A stretch of 39,499 nt of DNA from Pseudomonadota bacterium (GTDB lineage: Bacteria; Bdellovibrionota_B; Oligoflexia; Oligoflexales; CAIYRB01). Position 1 is the first letter of the stretch. Each line of letters opens with the position of its first letter. The position numbers and the translations under genes are program-made. Shown here piece by piece: positions 37,974-39,499 of the stretch. Below the pieces are notes generated by a model, which saw only the letters and a program-made list of their open reading frames with translations, was not told the DNA's origin and did not search any database. The stretch is taken from contig JAPLFY010000136.1 in assembly GCA_026390435.1 (NCBI GenBank), positions 1-39,499 on the forward strand. The letters are read 5' to 3'.

Positions 37974-38462
37974 ATGACGGCATCTTTTTACGATTTTTCA
38001 GCGGTATCGATTGATGGCGAAAACATCTCAATGTCTGCTTTCAAGGGCAAAGTTATCTTAGTGGTGAATGTTGCGAGCAAGTGCGGCTTCACCCCTCAAT
38101 ATAAAGGCCTAGAAGAGCTGTATCAGAGTTACTGCGACCGCGGTTTAATTGTCCTCGGCTTTCCCTGCAATCAGTTTGGTGGTCAAGAGCCAGGCACATC
38201 TGAAGACATCAAGCAATTCTGCAGCCTAACCTACCCTGTCAGCTTTCCTATGTTCTCCAAGGTTGAGGTTAATGGACCGAGTGCACACCCGCTGTTTAAT
38301 TTCCTTAAGCAAGAGCAAACAGGTGTACTCGGAACAGAAGGCATTAAGTGGAACTTCACCAAGTTTCTCGTTGGCCGCGATGGCAAAGTCGCCGAGCGTT
38401 TTGCCCCGCAAACAGCTCCTGCAAGTTTGACTAAAAACGTTGAGGAGCTACTTAATCGGTAG
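37974..38462 (+). CDS. Glutathione peroxidase family protein (Cys type)
   Basis: A 162-residue thiol peroxidase that reduces hydrogen and organic peroxides. The start is ATG 37974 with GGAGGAG eight bases upstream; a longer frame from 37833 has no support. Peroxidatic Cys37 lies in [12 protein letters not shown], Gln71 in CNQFGGQEP and Trp126-Asn127 in KWNFTKF, the usual catalytic set with Cys instead of selenocysteine. Cys83 (KQFC) sits where the resolving cysteine of thioredoxin-dependent members lies, so thioredoxin is the likely reductant. A terminator follows. Confidence 0.92.
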
Positions 38463-38535: not shown

Positions 38536-38573
38536 CTATATGTAGCTTAGAACGATAGCAGTCCCGTCCCATT

Positions 38574-38658
<85 letters not shown>

Positions 38659-38754
38659 CAAAGTGATTTTGCTAATTCTGCAGATGTCCATCGATGTCGT
38701 TAGCTTTTGCTTCCTCACCACTACATCCTGTAGCGTTCTTAGACTAGCGATAGC

Positions 38755-38779
38755 AGAGTACCCCAATATGGGGTACTCT
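38755..38779. promoter_or_regulatory. 10-bp dyad, likely operator of the toxin-antitoxin unit
   Basis: AGAGTACCCC-aatat-GGGGTACTCT is a perfect dyad 18 bases before the toxin start. Its centre contains CAATAT, a possible -10 box. Antitoxins of the XRE type bind such dyads to repress their own operon, so this fits autoregulation by the gene at 38887. Confidence 0.65.
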
Positions 38780-38797
38780 TGGGTGGAGCGTAAGGAA

Positions 38798-38897
38798 TTG
38801 GCCATTAAACAGGTTCAAATCAGTAGTGACGCGAGGCGAGATCTTCGCAAAGTTCCCGTTTATCAGCATCGAAGAGGTTAACAAACATGACTACTAA
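38798..38897 (+). pseudogene. Decayed RelE/ParE-like toxin (internal deletion)
   Basis: From TTG 38798 (GGAG upstream) the frame reads MAIKQVQISSDARRDLRKVP, the usual start of RelE/ParE-like toxins that pair with this antitoxin type. It then reaches a stop within ten codons. In the +1 frame from 38859 the sequence reads FISIEEVNKHDY and a TAA at 38895-38897, which matches the end of such toxins. The roughly 50-60 residue core is missing, with its catalytic residues, and the halves are out of frame. The 11-base overlap of the toxin end with the antitoxin ATG is still there. No active toxin can be made. Confidence 0.75.
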
Positions 38898-39219
38898 ACG
38901 GTCGAGGAAGACAGTAAAAAGCGACGCTACCTTATTCTTAGAAAAGCTTGGCGGCGGTCCTTTGACCTTCGGGCGCTTGCTTTATTCCATCCGCATGGGA
39001 GATGAAATTAGTCAGGTGGATTTTGCGAAGAAACTAGGTATTTCAAAAGCTCATCTTTGCGACATCGAGAAGGACCGACGCGTTGTCAGTATTTCTCGCG
39101 CTTGGGCTTGGGGCAAGAAGCTTGGGTACCCACCTGAGCAATTCATCGAGCTGGCTTTGCAATCAGTGCTGGAGCGTGAAGGACTTCATTTTCAAGTAAA
39201 ACTCATTACGGCGGCATAA
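38887..39219 (+). CDS. XRE-family antitoxin / helix-turn-helix regulator
   Basis: A 110-residue DNA-binding protein. The helix-turn-helix (about 30-75) includes ISQVDFAKKLGISKAHLCDIEKDRR, followed by a C-terminal helical part (EQFIELALQSVLEREGL) seen in antitoxins that follow RelE/ParE-like toxins. The ATG overlaps the end of the decayed toxin; AGAGG lies nine bases upstream. It appears intact although its toxin is broken, so it may persist as a plain repressor acting on the dyad at 38755-38779 or on toxins elsewhere. Confidence 0.8.
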   Translation: MTTKRSRKTVKSDATLFLEKLGGGPLTFGRLLYSIRMGDEISQVDFAKKLGISKAHLCDIEKDRRVVSISRAWAWGKKLGYPPEQFIELALQSVLEREGLHFQVKLITAA

Positions 39220-39499
39220 CCTGCATGTGCCTACACCGCCCTCGATCTCTCAGCCAAACCTGATGCCGCACGGCAGCGGGTATATATCTACCGGCGGTAT
39301 TTTGGCGCTGCCGCGCGGCAGCGATAGTTTGATCCCCCGCTGGTGGCGGCACTGCGGTATCGTCGCTCTCGACGGCGTTCTCAACAGTGTTGGTTCGGCT
39401 CCCAACATCATTACCCTTAGGTCCATGCTTCGCGGCAGCGCGCTCGGCCTTGCGCACAGGATCTCGTTTGGTGAGCAAGGCGACTTGTGATTTAGTCAG
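39206..39499 (-). pseudogene. Truncated HNH-endonuclease gene (open at window edge)
   Basis: On the minus strand the frame is open from the window edge and reads through KRDPVRKAERAAAK, a low-complexity linker and then RYIPAAVRHQVWLRDRGRC, which matches the lead-in to the HNH fold in a common family of HNH endonucleases. After RC the similarity stops and the frame ends inside the antitoxin gene. The His-Asn-His motif itself is missing, so the nuclease cannot be active. The break lies at about 39230, next to the antitoxin stop. The N-terminal side lies outside the window; a TTG at 39478 is one possible start. Confidence 0.6.

Follow-up and report, generated by a model that had tools for sequence, protein, structure and literature searches.

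Remains of a toxin gene in front of an intact antitoxin gene in a toxin-first type II module of a Pseudomonadota bacterium

HigBA and GraTA modules carry the toxin gene first and the gene of an HTH antitoxin second, and the module described here shares this gene order and the fold family with them. The likeness appears in Pfam ParE_toxin and HigB-like matches, in a weak sequence match of the antitoxin to the HigA-like antitoxin 3cec and in a similarly weak match between the killer-protein chain 6f8s and the toxin of an intact paralogue; in contrast, the matches to the curated HigA, RelE/StbE and HigB-like families stay below their cut-offs, and the toxin of our locus is destroyed. Pairs of a RelE/StbE toxin and an HTH antitoxin on Legionella plasmids (NZ_CP082853.1, NZ_CP045304.1) have the same toxin-first order, the same overlap and the same toxin ends, and their antitoxins are 46–48% identical to that of the window (the whole 39,499-nt stretch of DNA analysed here), whereas their toxins are full length, unlike ours. 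Antitoxins that have lost their toxins are also well described: orphan antitoxins are abundant in Klebsiella, with 2253 occurrences, many of which are recognisable remains of degraded pairs (PMC7192599), and anti-addiction, cross-regulation and mere debris have been proposed as their roles (review, PMC7354431). As in the orphan antitoxins of Klebsiella pneumoniae (PMC7192599; PMC7354431), the antitoxin in the window is kept, the toxin is lost and the toxin context is still recognisable; what differs from described cases is that the scar is readable at both ends and that a retained putative operator and ribosome site can be named. The route of decay is already known, and our locus is a clear and well-preserved example of it, not a new kind.

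The antitoxin gene (38887..39219, forward strand) encodes an intact HTH (HTH_3) protein of 110 aa, which matches Pfam HTH_3 above the cut-off (E 2.7e-7) and retains the conserved columns of its family; against the HigA equivalog TIGR02607 it scored 14.8 bits, below the cut-off of 47.7. It has relatives within the same genome, in genomes of the same genus and the same order and on Legionella plasmids, with up to 62% identity to antitoxins located behind intact toxins. On the basis of the HTH domain, the open frame and the homologues behind overlapping toxins, we classify it as the HTH antitoxin of a toxin-first type II module, and, because a functional toxin is absent and toxin debris lies where it is expected, as an orphan antitoxin from a degraded pair. 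A search of phage records gave no match to the antitoxin, and no close orthologue was found, the nearest relative being the antitoxin of genome G035 (locus L008) with 61% identity. Concerning start codons, the antitoxin ATG is replaced by ACG or ACA in a paralogue on contig C142 of the same genome (L032:1495-1510) and in the relatives L010 and L011; these antitoxins must therefore start elsewhere, perhaps at an upstream TTG within the toxin gene.

A preliminary description, made from the letters of the window, had stated that the first 20 and the last 12 codons of a toxin are readable in different frames, and direct reading reproduced the coordinates, codon counts and frames exactly. The 5′ part of the toxin gene (38798..38857, forward strand) begins with a TTG start and encodes MAIKQVQISSDARRDLRKVP, and the 3′ part (38859..38897, forward strand) encodes FISIEEVNKHDY in another frame and is closed by TAA, both parts being aligned to intact toxins; 20 codons, 1 nt, 12 codons and a stop make up the 100 nt of 38798-38897. 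Frame 2 runs from TTG (38798-38800) through MAIKQVQISSDARRDLRKVP into VYQHRRG and a stop at 38879-38881, and frame 3 gives FISIEEVNKHDY up to the TAA at 38895-38897, which still overlaps the antitoxin start (ATG at 38887), so that the overlap is preserved as had been claimed. The start of the remnant, TTG GCC ATT, corresponds to GTG GCC ATT of the intact C142 paralogue (L032), whose toxin gene of 285 nt reads GTG GCC ATT ... GAC TAT TAA. Compared with this gene, the remnant has a net loss of 185 nt (3n+2), which explains the change of frame, and the approximate deletion junction lies at 38858..38859 on the forward strand; the core is thus gone, in agreement with the earlier statement. In the alignment of the toxin family, 18 of the 24 invariant columns (K26 to Y73) fall in the lost core, including HDE 49-51, R61, R64, Y69 and R70, and a deletion that took most of the family-invariant residues would leave no active toxin to be made. 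The closest relatives share only some 60% identity, too little to place the junction exactly; the short direct repeat GTTTAT is a candidate for a repeat at the junction.

Since the fragmentary ORF had no match in Pfam or NCBIfam, we made a family profile for testing the fragments, using 22 intact toxins and leaving the window out. The profile matched the window with 8.3 bits at profile positions 4-24 and 12.9 bits at positions 79-96, that is, in two frames and without a complete reading frame or the conserved core; these are its best two matches in the six frames of the 39.5-kb window, the next best having 5.3 bits. The N-terminal fragment on its own has a weak score (8.3 bits), and in 4000 shuffles of the same stretch the N-terminal match never exceeded 5.0 bits and the C-terminal match never 4.1 bits. 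The intact toxins located upstream of homologous antitoxins and overlapping them are 90–95 aa long and end with (I/V)EEV.KHDY or close variants. Such full-length toxins were found on C142 of the same genome, in two genomes of the same genus (G002 and G003), on the Legionella plasmids, where they are annotated as RelE/StbE family, and in an uncultured proteobacterium (L005) and a deltaproteobacterial MAG (L006). The C142 toxin matches Pfam ParE_toxin with 26 bits, above the cut-off of 23, and NCBIfam RelE_StbE with 25.5 bits, slightly below the cut-off of 27.9. The assignment to a RelE/ParE-like toxin therefore stands: aligned to the full-length toxins that precede antitoxins of this type, as the preliminary description had proposed, the two peptides fit the two ends of one family of the RelE/ParE/HigB superfamily, with order, strand and spacing all correct, and none of the 4000 shuffles was comparable.

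The same description had also proposed looking for the intact locus in related strains. This was successful for intact paralogues and homologues; an intact allele of the exact locus was not found in the same-genus search, the closest genome (G002) lacking the whole module. For this reason the deletion is deduced from paralogues and more distant homologues, and the ancestral sequence and deletion endpoints proposed here are reconstructions from them. The window is the whole contig C70 of a genome of 4.28 Mb in 153 contigs, and the module is flanked by a glutathione peroxidase gene (37977-38462, Pfam GSHPx) on one side and by the contig end on the other. The glutathione peroxidase gene of G002 shows 96% identity, and similarity continues for another 79 nt, after which the sequences diverge; as G002 has no module there, the module is accessory at this site. 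Upstream of the module, 38573-38662 is occupied by about 14 units of a hexanucleotide repeat, (GGCAAC)n, which lies between it and the glutathione peroxidase gene. On the other side, directly after the antitoxin stop (39219), a truncated HNH-endonuclease gene (39206-39499, reverse strand) extends into the contig end; it is one of about 15–20 copies or fragments in the genome, some of them 94–96% identical, and its match to the other copies ends at 39222, 3 nt beyond the antitoxin stop. Several rearrangements have evidently met at this site.

Loss of the toxin has been found repeatedly among the relatives. The nearest relative of the antitoxin (L008, on contig C21 of G035) has its own internal toxin deletion with a change of frame (L008:1345-1496), and in its remnant MPDIRIVIIETEAQKKLRKV is followed by SNRSYRAIYAEIEQKAVEFISIEEVHKHEY in a different frame. 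Since this deletion does not share its 3′ endpoint with that of the window, the two represent different events or different stages. The 5′ breakpoint of L008 is at nearly the same place as that of the window (after ..LRKV), possibly a hotspot. Frameshifted toxins are present at antitoxin loci of G047 (twice), G022, G054 and G036, and toxin fragments at those of G013, G004 and G055. A solitary antitoxin on C131 of the same genome (L039) and its orthologue on contig C226 of G002 (L034) retain only about the last 7 toxin codons, EVHK(Y/H)EY. Of the well-matched antitoxin loci, about 23 are accompanied by an intact toxin and about 15 are not; some of the draft-genome frameshifts in this count may reflect sequencing errors, and it includes some duplicate loci. 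The same genome also has a second pair on C85 (L092, G000:C85:1500-2900), in which a toxin from a diverged subfamily is frameshifted and the adjacent HTH antitoxin is open; an intact paralogue of this pair lies on C111. As to toxins without antitoxins, G007 C19 was rejected as an orphan toxin, being cut by the contig end, and among the matches checked, the strong toxin match on G033 C34, which had no listed antitoxin, is followed by a diverged HTH gene. With the toxin gutted, the antitoxin intact and intact modules present elsewhere, the view that a type II module decays here while its antitoxin stays is well supported.

Upstream of the remnant, a perfect 25-bp palindrome, AGAGTACCCCAATATGGGGTACTCT (38755..38779), ends 18 nt before the toxin start, and we predict it to be the operator of the antitoxin on the basis of its symmetry, its core pattern, its relatives and co-variation with the recognition helix. 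Its 19-bp core pattern, GTACnCCnnnnnGGnGTAC, occurs in the 4.28-Mb genome only here and before the intact C142 toxin. A palindrome of the form GTAC-N11-GTAC is found family-wide, 20–60 nt before the toxin start, all 8 GTAC letters being present in the window and at about 14 other distinct loci, versus 0.1% of shuffled regions. The inner bases and the antitoxin's recognition helix vary together: xHLCD or xHLND helices go with C at the sixth position in both half-sites (GTACnC), QRLCD with GTACGTA, and AANLCD, PANLCD and SANLCD with TACTGC or TACTGT. The more similar the helices, the more similar the inner bases, also once identity over the remaining protein is corrected for (partial r 0.35, 0 of 2000 permutations). 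Since GTAC score was the criterion for picking the operator candidates and related loci do not count as independent, this association is support and not proof. The palindrome and the co-variation favour the view that the antitoxin would bind its own promoter, and the inner triplet, in varying with the recognition helix, resembles an operator code that can be read. Another solitary antitoxin (L023) likewise retains ATACTGTTTTTAACAGTAT, 81 nt upstream.

Signals for translation also appear to be retained. GGAG at 38785..38788 (forward strand), 9 nt before TTG, is the likely ribosome site of the toxin leader, and GAAGAGG at 38871..38877 (forward strand), inside the E-E-V codons of the toxin and 9 nt before ATG, is the predicted ribosome site of the antitoxin; almost all relatives carry GAGG, or a sequence close to it, equally far upstream of the antitoxin start. 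Because of the frameshift, the toxin start now opens a mini-ORF of 27 aa (38798..38881, forward strand), the end of an ORF at 38663-38881; as this mini-ORF stops 5 nt upstream of the antitoxin ATG, translational coupling could persist. The retained toxin ends comprise the putative operator, the start signals of the operon and the predicted ribosome site of the antitoxin, and the presence of these putative cis-elements offers a reason for their staying.

Putting these observations together, we consider it highly probable that a toxin module of HigBA order has been gutted and its antitoxin kept, probably as a solitary self-repressing regulator. The operon would have been a toxin-first type II module with a toxin of the RelE/ParE superfamily, from which one or a few deletion events would have removed about 185 nt of the toxin core out of frame, sparing the palindromic putative operator, the translation start of the operon, the predicted ribosome site of the antitoxin and the antitoxin gene. 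Since these elements are spared, the old operon probably continues to yield the antitoxin, in coupling to the 27-aa leader that ends just before ATG, and the antitoxin would still repress its own promoter as a solitary regulator. The module was probably broken recently, and neutralisation of related toxins by the antitoxin is only a possibility.

Among other explanations, domestication deserves tentative consideration, though we judge it unlikely: loss of the toxin would have been selected, and the solitary HTH protein would serve as an anti-addiction factor or as a regulator of modules such as that on C142. The intact antitoxin with its conserved columns, the perfect operator, the kept ribosome site, the recurrence of solitary antitoxins in relatives and the roles proposed for orphan antitoxins (PMC7354431, PMC7192599) fit this explanation; however, a recent neutral lesion would look alike, and no wider regulon is visible, since the inner bases of the window operator differ from those of the C142 operator and a search of the genome with the palindrome gave no further close site. 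A related proposal, which likewise seems doubtful to us, is that toxin loss repeatedly yields a selected compact cassette, in which the operator and the leader start are joined to the antitoxin and its ribosome site, and that the toxin ends are kept as cis-elements and not left over from recent decay.

It is improbable that the frameshifted ORF of 27 aa functions as a leader peptide or mini-protein instead of being debris: its start, the upstream GGAG and its stop just before the antitoxin ATG are kept and could sustain coupling, but its last 7 residues are an out-of-frame by-product, no homologue was seen and the L008 remnant gives a different peptide. It is very improbable, too, that the true toxin is intact and the assembler dropped about 185 nt. 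The division into 153 contigs and the contig end 280 nt past the antitoxin, in a repeated HNH gene family, would suit such an artefact, whereas the DNA of the toxin region has no other copy in the genome, only the downstream HNH piece being repeated, so that the repeats that would cause a collapse are absent, and an analogous lesion is found in the unrelated assembly of L008. Chance resemblance where no toxin was ever present can practically be set aside in spite of the shortness of each fragment, given the 0 of 4000 shuffles for each, the right order and overlap, and the homologous antitoxin and putative operator beside them.

The gutting of the toxin with retention of its antitoxin has thus left the readable scar of toxin-first decay that is expected for addiction modules, and this scar suggests which cis-elements are required for continued expression of the antitoxin. 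With the predicted family-wide operator and the way it depends on the recognition helix, annotators would be able to detect both solitary and intact members of the family.
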